Source of the DNA: Collimonas sp. OK412
GTDB lineage: Bacteria > Pseudomonadota > Gammaproteobacteria > Burkholderiales > Burkholderiaceae_D
Reading direction: 5' to 3'
Length of the DNA: 64,000 nt
NCBI RefSeq assembly: GCF_900112135.1
Contig: NZ_FOLC01000001.1
Coordinates: forward strand, 310,001-374,000
The translations under genes were made by a program, and so were the position numbers. A model generated the notes under the pieces. That model did not search any database, was not told where the DNA came from, and saw nothing but the letters and a program-made list of their open reading frames with translations. Shown here in pieces: positions 28,152-36,526 of this stretch (the stretch's first letter is position 1; every line of letters starts with the position of its first letter).

Positions 28152-29744
28152 ATGAAAACATCAAAGGGCAGTTTGATTGTCGCATCGTTGTTATTGACCA
28201 GTTTGCTGGCTGGTTGCGCTAGCGGAGGCGGCGAACTCGGTAAATCGCTGGGTTCCGGCTCTGGTGCCGGTGCCGGCACTGGTGCAGGCGGCGCAGGCGG
28301 CGGCACTGATGGCGGCGGTGGCGGTACTGGAGGCGGCGCTGACGGCGGTGGCGGCGGTGGAACAGGTGGTGGCGGAACAGGTGGTGGCGGAACAGGTGGT
28401 GGCGGAACAGGCGGTGGTGGAACAGGCGGTGGTGGAACAGGTGGCGGTGGAACAGGTGGTGGTGGAACAGGTGGCGGTGGAACAGGTGGCGGTGGAACAG
28501 GCGGTGGTGGAACAGGCGGTGGTGGAACAGGCGCTTCGGCCAATTTCCTCTCCAATGCCGGCACAGCCATATCCGGCACGGGCGCTGCGCTGGGAACGAT
28601 AGGCAATACCGTAATCAACAACGTGCCGTTGCTTTCGACCGACGCAAAAAGCGGCTTGGCCGGCGTGGTTAACAACGGCACCGGCATTGTGTCTACCTTG
28701 GGCGCCGGCGTCACCAACGGCCTCGGCCAGCTCGGCACCAATCCGAACGCCCTTGGCACCACCCTCGGCAGCACCGGCGGTGTGGTTACTCAAGTGGGGA
28801 ATACAGTACAAAGCGCCGGACAACTCGTGTCCGGCCTGGGCAGCGGGCCGCTGGCGCCCCTTGCCGCCGTGACCACGCCATTGGGCGGCTTGGTGACGCA
28901 GGTCGGCGCCGCGGTCTCCGGGCTGGGAGCGCCGTTGACCTCGGCCCTGACTAGCGGTCCGGTGCAGCAGGTCACCCAGACCGTCACCCAGGCGATCGTG
29001 CCGCTGACCAGCACGGTGACAACCCTGACGCAGACAGTCGGCAATGCAACCGGCCTCAACCAGCCTGTAAACAGCTTGCTGACGGCGGCGGGCGGCGGTG
29101 TTTCCAGCTTGGGCGGTGCGCTGACCGCGGCTAATGTGCCTGTGGTCAGCACCCTTGGCGGCGTAGTCAGCGGTGTCGGCGCTACTGTAGCGGGCCTTGG
29201 CACGAATGCCCTGGTCGGCACCGGCCAGCCTCTGCTGGGTAACCAGACCGGCGGTTTGCTGAGTGGTTTGACCGGCGCGGTCGGTGGCGGAACCGGCTCG
29301 GCCGGCGGCCCATTGGCGCCAGTGACTGGTTTGCTGAGCGGCTTGACTGGCGCAGTCGGCGGTGCAACGGGCGCCGGCGCCGGTCCATTGGCCCCGGTCA
29401 CCAATCTGGTTAGCGGCCTGACCGGGGCCCTGAGCGGCGCTGCAGGTACTGGCGCAAGTCCCTTGGCTCCGATCACTAATCTGGTGAGCGGCTTGACAGG
29501 TGCTCTGGGCGGCGCCGCAGGCACTGGCGCAAATCCTCTGGCCCCGGTCACCAACCTGGTAGCCGGCCTGACTGGCGCGGTCAGCGGTACAACCGGTTCG
29601 ACTGCCGCCAGCCCTCTGGCTCCGGTCACCAACCTAGTTAGCGGCCTGACCGGCGGCAAAGCCGCGACCGGCGCCACCAACGACCCGCTCGCTCCGGTGA
29701 CAGGTTTGCTGAGCGGATTACTGGGGGGAACCGCCAAGAAATGA
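28152..29744 (+). CDS. glycine-rich repeat lipoprotein (collagen-like triple-repeat type)
   Basis: A 530-residue exported protein: signal peptide and lipobox (LLLTSLLAGC, Cys 22), then a Gly-rich zone with twelve GGGGT-like pentapeptides to about residue 128, then a long Gly/Ala/Val/Leu/Thr region without Cys. Near the C terminus, from about residue 380, units of the type PLAPVTNLVSGLTGALGGA recur about six times at 25-28-residue spacing. Such proteins are annotated in Burkholderiales as collagen-like; a surface or matrix role is plausible but unproven. Good AAAAGGGGAAA box. Preceded by a sigma-54-type promoter. Confidence 0.8.
   Translation: MKTSKGSLIVASLLLTSLLAGCASGGGELGKSLGSGSGAGAGTGAGGAGGGTDGGGGGTGGGADGGGGGGTGGGGTGGGGTGGGGTGGGGTGGGGTGGGGTGGGGTGGGGTGGGGTGGGGTGGGGTGASANFLSNAGTAISGTGAALGTIGNTVINNVPLLSTDAKSGLAGVVNNGTGIVSTLGAGVTNGLGQLGTNPNALGTTLGSTGGVVTQVGNTVQSAGQLVSGLGSGPLAPLAAVTTPLGGLVTQVGAAVSGLGAPLTSALTSGPVQQVTQTVTQAIVPLTSTVTTLTQTVGNATGLNQPVNSLLTAAGGGVSSLGGALTAANVPVVSTLGGVVSGVGATVAGLGTNALVGTGQPLLGNQTGGLLSGLTGAVGGGTGSAGGPLAPVTGLLSGLTGAVGGATGAGAGPLAPVTNLVSGLTGALSGAAGTGASPLAPITNLVSGLTGALGGAAGTGANPLAPVTNLVAGLTGAVSGTTGSTAASPLAPVTNLVSGLTGGKAATGATNDPLAPVTGLLSGLLGGTAKK
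28351..28530 (+). repeat. tandem array, twelve 15-bp units
   Basis: Twelve copies of a 15-bp unit, consensus GGTGGTGGAACAGGT, differing at a few third positions (C/T). Each encodes GGGGT. As 15 is divisible by three, copy-number change would alter protein length without breaking the frame. Confidence 0.95.
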
Positions 29745-31678: not shown

Positions 31679-32701
31679 TCAGCTTGGTCGTATTCCCTTG
31701 CGATATTCTGTAGGAGAAGTCCACATGTGCTTGCGGAACAGCTTGGCGACATGCTCGCCGCTGAACAAACCGCAGCGCCGCGCTATCTTGTCGATCGGCA
31801 GGTCGGTCTCGGTCAGTTGCTGGCGTACCGCTTCCAGGCGCAGGTTCCGCAAGAAGTCATGCGGAGTCTGACCGGTTTCGCGCTTGAACTGGCGCACGAA
31901 ATTACGTTCGCTCATGGAGACGAAATTGGCAGCGTCGACCACGCTGACGGGCTCCGCCAGGTGCTCGACAAACCACAGCGAGGCGCGGTGGATCTTGCTG
32001 ACCTTGACCGGATCGAAGGCTATCGTCGCCTGGCTGGCAGGCGGGGTGTCGCGCCGCCGCTGGCAGACCACCAGGCTTTGCGCCACGCGCTGCGCAACCG
32101 CAGGGCCGAGATCGTTTTCCAGCAGGAGCAGCGCCAGGTCGGCTGCCATGCCGACATCGCAGGACGTGAAAATTCCATCGTCTTCGCTGATCTGCGCTTC
32201 GCGGTCGATTTTGATTAGCGGGAATTCGCGCGCCAGCTTGTCCAGCAGCGCCCAATGCGTGGTGGCGCGCCGATTGTTCAGGAAGCCGGCGGCGCCGATC
32301 ACGAATACGCCGGTGCAGATCGCGGCGACGCGGCGCACGCTGTTGCGCATCTGCTGCAGCCAGGCAATCAGGTCGGGATCCCGGTAAGCTTCGAAGTTTC
32401 CGGTGCCGCTGGCGATGAGCAGCGTATCGAATTGATGTTTGCAGAACGACGCCAGCGATGAGGTCATGATCTGCACCGACGCTGACGACATGATCATGCC
32501 GCCGGCGATGGAGAGAACGGAGACGGCGTAGCGTGTGGTACCTGGGAATACCGTGGATATCAGCTTGTCGCCGATCCCAAAGACATCTGCCGCGCCAACT
32601 ACGTCAGCCAGCACGACCCCTTCGAACACGATGATCCCTATATGCCTGGTTGAGCTGTTGCTGCCCATCACTTCAAGTGTCTTTGCGCACTCGATATCCA
32701 T
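31679..32701 (-). CDS. GlxA-type transcriptional regulator (DJ-1/PfpI plus AraC HTH)
   Basis: A 340-residue regulator. The N-terminal half is a class I glutamine-amidotransferase-like domain (IGIIVFEGVVLADVVGAADVFGIGD, and VAAICTGVFVIGAAGFLNNRRATTHW with the Cys elbow). The C-terminal AraC/XylS double helix-turn-helix runs from about residue 228 (VVDAANFVSMSERNFVRQFKRETGQTPHDFLRNLRLEAVRQQL). GGGGAGA precedes the ATG at 32701. Its stop is 30 bases before the diguanylate cyclase gene, so the two may be one unit. The ligand and targets are unknown. Confidence 0.9.
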   Translation of the reverse strand: MDIECAKTLEVMGSNSSTRHIGIIVFEGVVLADVVGAADVFGIGDKLISTVFPGTTRYAVSVLSIAGGMIMSSASVQIMTSSLASFCKHQFDTLLIASGTGNFEAYRDPDLIAWLQQMRNSVRRVAAICTGVFVIGAAGFLNNRRATTHWALLDKLAREFPLIKIDREAQISEDDGIFTSCDVGMAADLALLLLENDLGPAVAQRVAQSLVVCQRRRDTPPASQATIAFDPVKVSKIHRASLWFVEHLAEPVSVVDAANFVSMSERNFVRQFKRETGQTPHDFLRNLRLEAVRQQLTETDLPIDKIARRCGLFSGEHVAKLFRKHMWTSPTEYRKGIRPS

Positions 32702-32999
32702 GTGATTCTCCCCTGCTAGCGATCTACCTTTTTTGCATTGCCGGAACGCAATTTTTTATTGGTAAATTACTATTCCCTATTCTGCTACAAAATTGGCTTT
32801 TGTCCAGAAAATGATTGTTAAATATGGTTATTTATGTGGCGCGTTTACACTAGTTTTTTATGGCAATAAAAAATCTTCATACGAAAACCCGCTGTGTCCT
32901 TCAATGTTAATTTCTGTATGGCATTTAATTGAGGTGTGATGAGTGCCTAACGTGTTTCGTCCCGCGCTGCTTCCATTTCTTTTGCACATGATGCCGCCT
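32702..32999. other. AT-rich gap of 298 bases
   Basis: No gene seen. Markedly AT-richer than its surroundings, with an A/T-only hairpin TTTTTTAT - GGCA - ATAAAAAA at 32854-32873. It could end the minus-strand operon to its right and holds the promoter of the GlxA-type gene. The base composition hints at insertion or acquired DNA. Confidence 0.5.
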
Positions 33000-33293
33000 T
33001 CAATTCGACGAGCTGTAGCGTTCATGCTTGCTTTTCCTTTCGTCCAGCGCGTCGTGCAAGCGCGAGTTCTCCAGCGTCAGTTCCGCCACGATCTGCTTCA
33101 GCTTGGCGTTCTCTTCCCGCAGGCACTTCAGGTCGTGCGGATAAGCCTGCAGGCCGTTATACTGTTTTTTCCAGTTGAGAAAAGTGCGTTCGGAAATCCC
33201 GGCTTGCCGGATCACATCGGCCAATGGCATGCCGAGCTCCTCTTGCTTGAGAGCGGCAGCAATCTGGCTGCTTGAGTACGGAACATGTTTCAT
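33000..33293 (-). CDS. solitary IS3-OrfA-like helix-turn-helix protein
   Basis: A 97-residue protein: an HTH_Tnp-type start (YSSSQIAAALKQEELGMPLADVIRQAGISERTFLNWKKQYNG) and a coiled-coil (LREENAKLKQIVAELTLENSRLHDAL). This is the OrfA part of IS3-type transposases. No OrfB integrase follows and no terminal repeats are seen, so it is either a remnant or a domesticated DNA-binding protein. The gene starts 20 bases after the glycine-rich protein gene and has a strong GGGGGATG box, consistent with operon use. Confidence 0.8.
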   Translation of the reverse strand: MKHVPYSSSQIAAALKQEELGMPLADVIRQAGISERTFLNWKKQYNGLQAYPHDLKCLREENAKLKQIVAELTLENSRLHDALDERKSKHERYSSSN

Positions 33294-33313
33294 GGCATCC
33301 CCCGTATCTCTTC

Positions 33314-34147
33314 TTAGCGGTCTTTTAATCCCGATAGGTCGGACAGCTTGTCCAGGCCGAGCCGTGCGCGTATTACCGGATCCTTGTACTGATCGCCTAT
33401 GGTGTTGATGTTGTTCTGGCCGACGACGCCGGTTGACGCTGCGGCAGCCGGCATGGGCGCGGCAGGCACGCCGGCTCTTTCCATGCCGGGACAGGAACGT
33501 CCGGTGGATTCAACCGCTTTCCGGTTTGCTTCGCTTTGGCACAGCAGGGCAAGTGCGACATCGTTCAGGCCCATGGCGCGGAATTCCCTGGAATCGAGGC
33601 GGCGTACGCAAGCCTGGTCGACCATGGTGGTGCCGCCGGTGGCGCCGAAACCTGTGAACGACAAGCCGAACGATGCTGAACCCATGCAGGTGTCGGACAG
33701 GGTTGTCGTCAGCGATGGCGCAACGATGTTCGGCACGGTCTTGACGGAATAACTGCCGCCGTAGTCAACCGTGGTCTTGGTGTTGTTCGCGCTGCTGCCC
33801 GGGTCACCTGCAGCGCTGCTGGTGCCGGTTCCTGCTCCTGCGGATGTTCCGGCGGCGGATGCTCCCGTTCCCGATGTGGAAACGGATACGCTCACGGTTG
33901 AATTGCCGCCGGTGCCTGAGCCGCCGGTTGCACTGCCGCCATTGGTGGCAGATGCGCCATATGTTCCAGATATCGTGTTGGAAGCGGTGCCGCCTGCTGC
34001 CGTGCCGCCTGCTGCCGAGCCGCCGACGCCGCCCGCGCCGCCAACCGCAGTTGCAGTCGATGTGGATGTGGTGGTAGGTGTCGTCTGTGCTAGCGCCGGC
34101 ACTGTGAAGGTCGAGGCTACCAGGATGCCTATAAGTATGCGTTTCAT
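33314..34147 (-). CDS. exported Ser/Thr/Gly-rich protein with Cys-framed C-terminal domain
   Basis: A 277-residue protein with signal peptide (ILIGILVASTFTVPALA, cleavage about 20). Residues 25-130 are a low-complexity Thr/Ser/Ala/Gly zone. The C-terminal half looks folded: SYSVKTVPNIVAPSLTTTLSDTCMGSASFGLSFTGFG, then DQACVRRLDSREFRAMGLNDVALALLCQSEANRKAVESTGRSCPG, with four Cys. Function unknown. The N-terminal zone resembles that of the next upstream gene. Genes at 34870, 34147 and 33293 run in one direction with gaps of 96 and 20 bases. Confidence 0.7.
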   Translation of the reverse strand: MKRILIGILVASTFTVPALAQTTPTTTSTSTATAVGGAGGVGGSAAGGTAAGGTASNTISGTYGASATNGGSATGGSGTGGNSTVSVSVSTSGTGASAAGTSAGAGTGTSSAAGDPGSSANNTKTTVDYGGSYSVKTVPNIVAPSLTTTLSDTCMGSASFGLSFTGFGATGGTTMVDQACVRRLDSREFRAMGLNDVALALLCQSEANRKAVESTGRSCPGMERAGVPAAPMPAAAASTGVVGQNNINTIGDQYKDPVIRARLGLDKLSDLSGLKDR

Positions 34148-34243
34148 GGCTTCTCCATCGTGATGGTTGGTTTTATAAACGAGAGGGAAAAATTTCTCTT
34201 CCCTCTCGCAACTCATAGCTAACCGAGCCGTTGCCAGTTGTTG

Positions 34244-34870
34244 TTATTGATTGCCGGCTTTTGCCGAGGAGAATGCACTGCCGCCAAAACCGCCGTTGCC
34301 GGCAGTAGCATTGCCAGATCGGGCGCCGCCGGCGAACACGAAGCTTCCTGCCGCGCCGCCGGTATTGCTAACGCCGCTAATCGATGCATCTGCGTTGCCG
34401 GTCCATGAGCCGCTGGTTCCTCCGCCTGAAGTGGCATTGCCGTTATAAGCTTGCGTACCGCCAGTGGCGCTGGATGAGCCAGCGCCGCCTGTGGAACTGC
34501 CAAACCTGCCAGCGTCGCCGCTGCTGCCGCCAGTGCCGGCGCCGCTGCTGGTTCCACCGGCTGTAGTTGCGCCGCCGGACGCCGTGCTGCCGCCGGCGCC
34601 GGTCCAGTTGCCGCCGGTATTGGCCAGGCCGCCGGTAATGGTTTGGGTTGCATTGCCGCCCGTTGCCGTGCCGCCAGTGGCCGATCCGCCGGTTGCGCCG
34701 CCGGAAGATGCCGATCCGCCTGCACCGCCTGCGCCACCGACCGACACTGCGGTTGCGACGCTAGTGGTTGTGACTGTACTAGTGCTTGTATTTGAACCCG
34801 AAGATTGATGGGCGAATGCAGAGACGGCGAACAGTGAAGCTATGGATGCGGCAATAATTTGCTTTTTCAT
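34244..34870 (-). CDS. exported glycine-rich protein
   Basis: A 208-residue secreted protein: signal peptide (IIAASIASLFAVSAFA, to about 20), then Thr/Ser-rich TSTSTVTTTSVATAV followed by a Gly/Ser/Ala/Thr-rich region without Cys to the end. Repeats of GGATGGSATGGTATGG type dominate. The ATG at 34870 follows AAGGAGAA. Compositionally a structural or adhesive surface protein, but no family was recognised. First gene of the three-gene minus-strand set. Confidence 0.65.
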   Translation of the reverse strand: MKKQIIAASIASLFAVSAFAHQSSGSNTSTSTVTTTSVATAVSVGGAGGAGGSASSGGATGGSATGGTATGGNATQTITGGLANTGGNWTGAGGSTASGGATTAGGTSSGAGTGGSSGDAGRFGSSTGGAGSSSATGGTQAYNGNATSGGGTSGSWTGNADASISGVSNTGGAAGSFVFAGGARSGNATAGNGGFGGSAFSSAKAGNQ

Positions 34871-35641
34871 TTCTGTTTCTCCTTGGAGTGGGGACATCAT
34901 TCACAAGATTGTCTTGCCCATGCGCCCCTGGGCATCGACAAGTGTTACTACAAATAAAAATCATCTCGTCAGCGTGCCGTGCATAAGAAATGTGCCGGAT
35001 GAGAGCGATATTCTTATGCTGCAACAAGCGTTGCGAAGGCCTCGCCGAACTAAACGAAAATGTCTCTTTTCGACAGGACAAAGCGTGATCGAAGTATTGC
35101 TGTGGTTTGGGCGCGATCAGCGCAGGGCACGTCGAGCGAGTGCACTTACGTTGATCTGATCATAGGAGTGCAAAACCTAGTATTTGCGACAAAACCTTGT
35201 CGGCTTCGGACAGGCAAGTTGGCCGGTTTGGCTAATGTTTTTCCGTGCTGCATCATGGGGCGCCAATAAAAAAAACATAAGAATGCGATGTCACTCTTGG
35301 CGCATGGATTGGCGTAGCTGCGAATCATGCCGTGCGGGAAAACTGTCGAGAGAACGTGATGTCCGGTTTTGACAAGGCGTAAAACAAGCATGTGCAGATT
35401 CCGGATTGTTGCGTTGAAATTGCATGTGGAGCGCCACATTCCGCATGTGATGCGCGGGCAGATTTTTATGCGAAGCGGGTTGTGCATCACGGTGCTGTGC
35501 TGTTTTTTTTTGCGATCGGCATAGGTCTCGGTAGCGTGAATTTTTTACGCGGTCGCGATTATCGGATATATTGCCGCATGTCAATTTGTGTCCCGCTGCC
35601 AAATGCTGCCGGAGCACTCAATCCAAATCGAAAAGCCAGCC
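34871..35641. other. 771-base gap without a convincing gene
   Basis: Longest gene-free stretch. AT-richer than neighbours. Its open frames lack start signals and protein-like composition. It holds the upstream region of the glycine-rich operon (minus) and of the DMT permease gene (plus), the 9-bp inverted repeat at 34981-35019, and a short one at 35187-35202 (CGACAA - AACC - TTGTCG). It may hide a small RNA, which sequence alone cannot show. Confidence 0.5.
34981..35019. repeat. 9-bp inverted repeat with 21-base spacer
   Basis: GCATAAGAA at 34981-34989 and TTCTTATGC at 35011-35019 are perfect reverse complements. They lie 110-150 bases upstream of the first gene of the glycine-rich operon. 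It could be a paired operator or an RNA hairpin. Confidence 0.4.
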
Positions 35642-36526
35642 ATGAATATTGCGGAATTGTTTTCTCTCGCGGCCATCTGGGGCGCATCGTTTCTTTTCAT
35701 GCGCATTGGTACGCCGGAATTCGGCCCGGTGCCGTTGATCGCCTTGCGCGTCGGCATCGCCGCGCTGGTGCTGCTGCCGGTATTGCGTTCGGCTGCCGCG
35801 CGCGGTCAGGTGCGCAGCAAGTTGTGGCCGCTGCTGGTGGTCGGCGTCACCAATTCAGCCTTGCCGTTTTCGCTGTTTGCCTACTCGACCTTGTATGTGA
35901 ATGCCGGTTTCGATGCCGTCTTGAACGCCACCGTGCCGTTATGGACCGGCCTGATCGCGTTCGTCTGGCTGAAAACGCCGATGAGCCGGCCGCAGGTGAT
36001 CGGCATGCTGGTCGGCATGGCGGGCGTGGTGGTGCTGGTGTGGGACAAGATCGGCGAGGGGCAGCCCGGAGTCTGGCTGGCGACCGGCGCCGTGCTGCTG
36101 GCTACGCTGTCCTATGGTTTCGCGATCAACTATTCGAAAACCCGCCTGGCCGGCGTTCCGCCTTTTGTCGTGGCCTGCGGCAGCCAGCTGGCGGCGACCA
36201 TGGTGCTGTTGCCGCTGGCAGTACTGTATTGGCCGGCGGCGCCGGTATCCAGCACCGCCTGGTATTCAGTGCTGGCGCTGGGAGTGCTGTGCACCGGCGT
36301 GGCCTACGCGATCTTCTACCGCCTGCTGGACCGCGTCGGCTCGGCTTATGCGGCTTCCGTGACCTTCCTGATCCCTATCTTCGGCGTGGTCTGGGGCGCC
36401 ATTTTCCTGAAAGAGCAAGTAACGGCCGGCATGATCCTCGGCTGCCTGGTCATCTTGCTGGGAACTGCGCTGGCGACCGGAAAACTGGATCTGTCCGGCT
36501 ATCTGCGCGGCAAAGCGGCTAAATAA
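35642..36526 (+). CDS. DMT family permease (EamA type)
   Basis: A 294-residue inner-membrane protein with ten predicted helices in two EamA repeats, the first opening LFSLAAIWGASFLFMRIG and the second around LATLSYGFAINYSKTRLAG, with the usual SVTFLIPIFGVVWGAIFLKE near the end. Such proteins export amino acids or other metabolites. The ATG at 35642 marks the family N terminus. It stands upstream of the leucine genes but probably has its own promoter; the 177-base gap argues against one transcript. Confidence 0.88.
   Translation: MNIAELFSLAAIWGASFLFMRIGTPEFGPVPLIALRVGIAALVLLPVLRSAAARGQVRSKLWPLLVVGVTNSALPFSLFAYSTLYVNAGFDAVLNATVPLWTGLIAFVWLKTPMSRPQVIGMLVGMAGVVVLVWDKIGEGQPGVWLATGAVLLATLSYGFAINYSKTRLAGVPPFVVACGSQLAATMVLLPLAVLYWPAAPVSSTAWYSVLALGVLCTGVAYAIFYRLLDRVGSAYAASVTFLIPIFGVVWGAIFLKEQVTAGMILGCLVILLGTALATGKLDLSGYLRGKAAK

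Follow-up and report, generated by a model that had tools for sequence, protein, structure and literature searches.

A predicted three-gene operon of Collimonas and other Oxalobacteraceae that joins two exported-looking proteins to an OrfA-derived helix-turn-helix protein

In Collimonas sp. OK412, of which a 64-kb stretch of genomic DNA (the window) was analyzed here, three genes termed g1, g2, and g3 lie in that order on the minus strand, spanning 34870-33000. As judged from sequence comparisons, g1-g2-g3 is one unit that has been duplicated as a unit, and it is predicted to be a dedicated and long-kept operon of the Oxalobacteraceae. Its third gene is, by the same evidence, a conserved OrfA-derived helix-turn-helix (HTH) protein without a partner transposase, the four-Cys domain of g2 belongs to a family common to bacteria and phages, and a neighboring gene, which encodes the putative regulator P0004, goes with the unit. 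We propose that g1-g2-g3 is an envelope or matrix operon switched on by P0004, with g3 as a domesticated accessory regulator, a reading that we regard as evenly poised.

Gene Organization and Conservation of the g1-g2-g3 Unit

The first gene, g1 (34870-34244, minus strand), encodes an exported-looking Gly/Ser/Thr-rich protein of 208 amino acids, and g2 (34147-33314, minus strand) encodes an exported-looking protein of 277 amino acids in which a Gly-rich N-terminal half is followed by the four-Cys domain and a C-terminal DPVIRARLGL motif. The 97-amino acid product of g3 (33293-33000, minus strand) combines an HTH_Tnp_1 domain with a leucine-zipper-like coiled coil and is best described as a domesticated IS3-OrfA-like protein. 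The ATG of g3 lies 20 bp behind g2 and is preceded by GGGGGA. The coordinates and the three-gene anatomy given in the initial annotation are correct. The shared Thr/Ser-then-Gly layout that it described in the first two proteins is also present when judged by eye, in that each has a K/R-hydrophobic-AxA leader followed by a Thr/Ser stretch and then Gly-rich repeats. A Pfam search gave no match to either g1 or g2, and no Rfam family was found in 32600-35700.

In what follows, L and G numbers are our own handles for loci and genomes. Among 100 relatives g2 is present in 18, including 13 of the 15 Collimonas genomes, with the weakest of the 18 matches at an expect value (E) of 1.7e-5. In a family-wide draw of 392 genomes, 71 gave a g3-profile match of some kind at E ≤ 1e-16 and 29 gave matches of at least 144 bits, the next best (111.6 bits) being an OrfA beside its OrfB; about twenty of the lower-scoring places were inspected. 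In all 29 of the top-scoring loci g2 is directly upstream of g3 on the same strand, with one overlap that is due to an upstream start codon. In the window and in L031-L046, g3 stands behind g2 and a Gly-rich exported-looking g1 frame before it. A named GTDB scan retained 80 of 97 loci, and in its 19 Oxalobacteraceae-type loci (L056-L074, from 18 genomes) g3 is behind g2 in 16 and P0004 follows in 18. A chance array was rejected, as the gene order recurs in many genomes.

Two Collimonas genomes carry a second g1-g2-g3 copy (L035 3419-8689 and L045 4558-8887), in which the duplicated DNA begins about 0.5 kb upstream of g1, stops 15-25 bp beyond g3, and does not include P0004. Taken together, the gene spacing and the duplication of the genes as a unit lead us to infer that g1, g2, and g3 are co-transcribed.

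The Third Gene Is a Predicted Domesticated OrfA-Like Protein

The product of g3 matches Pfam HTH_Tnp_1 at E 3.1e-11 (43.8 bits, cut-off 24.1), and its NCBIfam matches, to IS3 transposase (E 6.2e-11) and to the IS2 repressor TnpA (E 0.004), are both far below the cut-offs. The nearest relatives of g3 outside the unit and the pga operons described below are OrfA proteins with OrfB beside them. These resemblances are what might be expected if g3 were an insertion sequence (IS) remnant hitch-hiking behind g2, an explanation that we find hardly credible and that is already contradicted by several observations. The fixed linkage to g2 (29/29) is one of them. A second is the median ratio of non-synonymous to synonymous substitution (dN/dS) of g3, which is 0.061 (17 sequences, 94 pairs restricted to dS 0.05-1.5) and indicates purifying selection; for comparison, the medians are 0.054 for P0004 (15 sequences, 78 pairs) and 0.111 for g2 (16 sequences, 101 pairs). 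A third is the HTH tree of 45 rows, in which a branch with 100/99 support parts 18 OrfA-type rows from 27 others, namely 23 from the unit and four that are linked to pga genes (L262, L263, L066, and L071). The tree is built on few columns, with half of its inner forks drawn open, and only that branch is used here.

The genes that an IS element would bring with it are also missing. There is no OrfB-like frame within 1.5 kb behind g3, and tblastn with four OrfB probes gave no match in the window, L046, L063, L264, or L265, but detected a complete or partial OrfB in 17 of the 18 OrfA-type loci (the exception being L276). No inverted repeats of 14 nt or longer flank the unit in 32650-35650, and g3 is present in one copy in its own genome. 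The initial annotation had taken the gene for an HTH-plus-coiled-coil protein lacking both OrfB and terminal repeats, and had suggested that such solitary transposase-type proteins can be domesticated, and both views are upheld; its own alternative, that the HTH gene would turn up in relatives as a remnant beside unrelated genes, is not borne out. Two further observations are recorded here. The synonymous divergence of g3 between the window and L031-L034, L036, and L037 is 1.1-2.1, and that of P0004 next door to the same loci is 0.5-1.0. A comparison of IS ends revealed a possible inverted repeat in one element and no TGTC motif.

P0004, a Neighboring GATase1-AraC Regulator

P0004 (32701-31679, minus strand) is the constant neighbor of g1-g2-g3 and is separated from g3 by 298 bp. 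Its product combines a DJ-1/PfpI (GATase1-like) domain with an AraC-type HTH, both of which score above their Pfam cut-offs (DJ-1_PfpI 61.6 bits, HTH_18 77.4 bits), and it resembles FtrA (E 9.3e-51) and GbdR (E 2.1e-34), both below the curated cut-offs. At E ≤ 1e-70 it occurs in 34 of the 392 family genomes. These include all 29 genomes with a top-scoring g3, in each of which it adjoins the unit by coordinates, as well as five further genomes, in four of which it adjoins g2, so that 33 of 34 genomes have P0004 beside g2. Where g2 and g3 have been lost, P0004 has decayed: the full-sized Collimonas genome G007, which lacks both, retains, flanked by the EamA and GGDEF genes, a P0004 remnant of 144 amino acids with internal deletions, and the surrounding 18 kb gave no match to g1, g2, or g3. 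Both the linkage and the decay argue that P0004 goes with the unit. The other Collimonas genome without g2, G001, is 1.7 Mb in size, and the P0004 sequence of L039 (5872-6890, Collimonas G012) is distributed over two reading frames.

A gene for a dCache-GGDEF protein (31648-30083, minus strand) follows P0004 in the window. Further along, on the plus strand at 28152-29744, a lipoprotein-like frame of 530 amino acids has a GGGGT repeat run and later APVTxLxSGLTG repeats, and is another low-complexity exported-looking protein near the unit.

The Promoter Region Upstream of g1

The initial annotation described AT-rich gaps of 298 and 771 bases on the two sides of the unit. This is true of the 298-bp gap between g3 and P0004 (39% GC, compared with 61% for the window) and only mildly so of the 771-bp gap upstream of g1 (50% GC), beyond which lies a divergent gene named EamA-type from sequence resemblance. 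The 771-bp gap contains what appears to be the promoter. The element TGTC-N7-GACA occurs three times in the 64-kb window, each time inside the same 314 bp of this gap, at 35360..35374, within a conserved block, and within the predicted leader at 35061..35075 (all on the minus strand). Shuffled windows contain a mean of 0.61 such elements per whole window, and three anywhere were reached in 3 of 100 shuffles. The middle site sits in a block conserved over four genera, which reads TGTCCGAAGCCGACAAGGTTTTGTCG, then 19 bp, then TCCTATGATCA. It comprises a tandem TGTC-N17-TGTC (35188..35212, minus strand), a predicted activator site with six-base half-sites and a 15-bp spacer, upstream of a probable -10 box, TATGAT (35159..35164, minus strand), which from the alignment is TATTAT or TAATAT in relatives. 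The transcript is predicted to start near 35151, which would give a leader of about 280 nt. A sigma-54 or a plain sigma-70 reading of this promoter was considered by eye and dropped, and a sigma-70 scan gave three sites against 2.2 in shuffles.

The core AAGGTTTTGTC is present upstream of g1 in 19 of 23 g3-bearing loci (the window, L031-L046, and six named relatives, two of the 23 being duplicates) and in none of 49 Burkholderia and Caballeronia loci, and is absent from L031, L035, L046, and L067. Because the loci are related, these counts are given without a probability. Read as a direct repeat, the conserved element is TGTCCG-15 bp-TGTCGC, which resembles the site architecture of the GATase1-AraC group and makes it the predicted P0004 site by analogy. 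The sites reported for CdhR are direct repeats of GGTCGC half-sites with a 15-bp spacer, and those of GbdR, SouR, and ArgR are called very similar in that report (PMC5806209); the ArgR site reported in P. protegens starts with TGTCGC (PMC12134079), and the motifs reported for another AraC-type regulator, GliR, differ (PMC8151288).

A different assignment is that g3 rather than P0004 is the main regulator of the operon, as an autoregulator on TGTC-N7-GACA elements, with P0004 serving other targets. TGTC-N7-GACA is found upstream in 20 of 23 loci with g3, in none of three with P0004 but no g3 behind g2, and in one of the 49 lacking both. Promoters with as many as three sites would suit a small dimeric HTH protein such as g3, and the paralogous copies, which lack P0004, retain two sites each. 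However, the 21-bp tandem spacing and the position next to the -10 box fit the GATase1-AraC group; in the loci without g3, P0004 ranks with the most diverged versions (48-60% identity), so that a change of the site along with the protein is conceivable; and P0004 has decayed where g2 and g3 were lost. We consider g3 as the main regulator doubtful but tenable. The promoter counts themselves do not choose between the two proteins as the binder, and the predicted footprint fits the AraC-type neighbor at least as well.

When its own genome was searched with TGTCNRAWNNNGACA, 14 matches at 13 places were obtained, compared with three for the reversed control. Three of the places are the g1 promoter, and eight of the other ten lie inside mechanically listed frames or straddle their starts, so we do not propose a wider regulon.

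The Four-Cys Domain and Its Phage Relatives

The domain of g2 framed by four Cys residues (TCMGS...CVRR...LLCQ...SCPG; 33485..33751, minus strand) is common to g2 and phage proteins and is predicted to fold as a beta hairpin and three helices. Its recognition in the initial annotation as a Cys-framed domain is well supported, given that the spacing of the four Cys residues is retained in 74 of 75 bacterial proteins (the window and the 74 of 80 loci that yielded a full frame) and in 78 of 80 viral loci, the other two of which gave no full frame. Over the Cys domain g2 matches PHROG_20531 at E 1.8e-15 (profile positions 185-313 of 314). Phage relatives were reached, with E values of 1e-3 to 8e-2, through L047, a bacterial homologue that is more distant, and include JJJB_0025 of Achromobacter phage JWAlpha, gp45 of Pelagibacter phage HTVC023P, gp54 of HTVC115P, and a protein of isolate ctXG6705. 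In IMG/VR there are at least 554 relatives among the 600 viral stretches read. The DPxxRxRLG motif at the C-terminus is a feature of 66 of 75 bacterial but only 3 of 78 viral relatives. JJJB_0025 has it, as DPIVRKRLGL, together with the leader, the Gly-rich stretch, and the Cys domain of g2, and a single BLASTP comparison of the two proteins gave E 9e-7.

Searches for named relatives of the domain found little else. At E 0.01 no Pfam family matches more than two of 81 aligned members, the PDB sequence search gave no match at E 1, and Foldseek of the model against PDB returned nothing (best E 2.7). Foldseek against BFVD gave eight matches at E ≤ 0.001, all of them unnamed or uncharacterized. 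Downstream of the phage Cys gene an exported-looking partner is present in 31 of 55 cases by a crude hydrophobicity rule. Two phage Cys proteins (L208 5179-6408 and L212 5257-6465) have very long Asn/Thr repeat regions before the domain.

These relationships raise the question of whether the unit is phage-borne cargo (a moron) or an envelope function of prophage origin, for example superinfection exclusion or lysis, that the host has kept. Membership in PHROG_20531, the abundance of viral relatives, and the layout of JJJB_0025 are all consistent with such an origin, and both second copies of the unit adjoin phage terminase genes (by PHROG check on L035, to which L045 is 89% identical there), with a gene named VgrG-like by eye further along from each. 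On the other hand, pattern scans of viral contigs revealed nothing closely related to the g2 domain or to g3, and phage searches with the Cys domain of the window and with full g2 gave no match, the latter by tblastn at E 1e-3 against 50,697 phage records. Moreover, the nearest neighbors of the main copy (EamA, P0004, and GGDEF) include no recognized phage gene, and each terminase-side copy is closer to the main unit of its own host than to the other such copy, which suggests copying from host to island. We therefore regard a phage origin of the unit as unlikely.

Possible Partnership of g1 and g2 With and Without g3

The type of g1 and the N-terminal half of g2 change together in 16 of 16 loci (the window and L031-L045), while the Cys domain is nearly constant. 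In ten of them (the window, L031-L037, L041, and L042) a MKKQI-type g1 goes with a MK(R/H)xLIG-type g2 start, and in the other six (L038-L040 and L043-L045) a MLRKTT-type g1 goes with a MK(C/R)AxKA-type start. This joint switch points to a common action of the low-complexity parts of g1 and g2, but it may also reflect the exchange of one DNA block.

Related g1-g2 pairs without g3 occur in Burkholderia and Caballeronia. No g3 match was obtained at E 1e-4 in L075-L135, some of which end soon after g2. Of these loci, those read singly (Burkholderia L075, L083, L085, and L090; Caballeronia and kin L100, L109, L124, and L125; and L128, L130, and L132) have exported low-complexity genes before g2 and further exported-looking genes, not g3, behind it. 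In Burkholderia L083 (4222-7272) three small exported-looking low-complexity genes stand in a row before the Cys gene, and the Cys proteins of L075, L085, and L090 have a long Pro/Ala stretch at the C-terminus.

A further arrangement is seen in L047, L048, L136, and L137, where the Cys gene is followed by genes for an exported-looking protein with a YHVPQYMPG-like stretch and a small YkuD-like protein; two of the YkuD-like proteins match by Pfam at E 4.5e-4 and 2e-4, both just below the curated cut-off. On the viral contig L136 (2586-6255), where the YkuD-like protein falls narrowly short of the Pfam cut-off, genes for a family-2 glycosyltransferase and a polysaccharide deacetylase also lie behind the Cys gene.

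Discussion

The initial annotation included neither P0004 as the fourth gene, nor the Cys family shared with phages, the conserved promoter core in the 771-bp gap, nor the g1-g2 pairs without g3. In the mechanism that we propose, P0004 would sense a small molecule, bind the tandem TGTC half-sites that immediately precede the -10 box, and thereby switch on the transcript starting near 35151. The products of g1 and g2 would be exported and form a glycine-rich layer or fiber, stabilized by disulfides, in the cell envelope or the biofilm matrix, with g2 capping or anchoring g1. As the last product of the same mRNA, g3 would bind DNA as a zipper dimer and serve as an accessory regulator, probably in a feedback role. 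The least secure step is what g1 and g2 do, which is deduced from neighborhood and composition. The GGDEF protein next to P0004 and the polysaccharide genes of the viral contig L136 are counted in favor of a matrix role.

Surface polysaccharide genes provide a second lead. In four relatives (Herbaspirillum RV1423, G557, the metagenome-assembled genome RYN_592, and CAVE-383) a pga operon whose first gene is a g3-like HTH gene lies beside P0004, g2, and g1. PgaA, PgaB, and PgaC were detected by tblastn in all four, and the domains of PgaA and PgaB by Pfam in RYN_592. Herbaspirillum RV1423 and G557 contain g3 as well as the g3-like gene of the pga operon.

Several results weigh against a matrix operon under P0004. 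The pga link does not extend to Collimonas, since the PgaB hydrolase domain PF14883 (GHL13) was found in 0 of 15 Collimonas genomes, with E. coli positive as the control. In a class-wide draw the domain profile detected 2 of 369 genomes, one of them that of the window itself. The structure models are of modest confidence, with a mean predicted local distance difference test score (pLDDT) of 64 and 67; block values in the hairpin-helix part are about 61-85. The phage Cys genes keep other company, which says nothing for a matrix role, and with four probes an endolysin was nearby in only 12 of 42 loci, so that a lysis role of the phage protein is a lead only. P0004 itself can occur without the unit, as in G713, where the surrounding 14 kb contained no Cys gene, and as in the Glaciimonas-group genome G028, where a second P0004 has neither the unit nor a Cys gene. 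Finally, the promoter core is present in none of the three loci with P0004 but no g3 behind g2, and is also absent from L323, which leaves g3 as a candidate binder.

A bolder version of the proposal, which we put forward tentatively and consider rather improbable, is that g1 and g2 represent a new kind of exported matrix or envelope polymer, in which a glycine-rich filler is combined with a partner bearing a four-Cys cap, the cap being common to hundreds of phages that would export it during infection. Such a polymer would be governed by a GATase1-AraC switch and would have a transposase subunit as its dedicated feedback regulator, which would also have been recruited to a PNAG (poly-N-acetylglucosamine) operon.

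Domesticated transposase HTH proteins, AraC switches, and exported low-complexity proteins are all known kinds. Neither the g1-g2-g3-P0004 combination nor the Cys domain beyond an unnamed PHROG was found in open-access literature and database searches, in agreement with the initial annotation, which had recognized no described system of this composition. The PNAG operon pgaABCD adjoins the cluster in four Herbaspirillum-type genomes, where it starts with a g3-like HTH gene that apparently stands with g3 in the tree, but Collimonas differs in lacking the GHL13 domain of PgaB in all 15 genomes. Like IS3-family OrfA proteins, g3 has an HTH and a heptad coiled coil within about 90-100 amino acids, but unlike them it has no OrfB, no terminal repeats, a fixed genomic place, purifying selection, and a separate side of the tree. 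It appears to be a clear example of an OrfA-type transposase subunit that has been domesticated as the fixed third gene of one operon. With the PHROG_20531 proteins, such as JWAlpha JJJB_0025 and HTVC023P gp45, g2 shares an exported-looking character, a low-complexity N-terminal part, and the four-Cys domain, but in Collimonas it is part of the g1-g2-g3 operon, and most of the phage forms are without the DPxxRxRLG end. An exported-looking domain that is widespread in viral metagenomes, and for which no recurring Pfam match or PDB relative was found here, is tied to a conserved bacterial gene module. P0004, in turn, shares DJ-1/PfpI and AraC HTH domains with the GATase1-like AraC regulators GbdR, CdhR, ArgR, and FtrA, and its predicted site resembles the reported half-site with its 15-bp spacer, but its neighbors are genes for exported proteins rather than catabolic genes. 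The predicted promoter and its regulator make the role of the Cys domain testable in a tractable soil bacterium.

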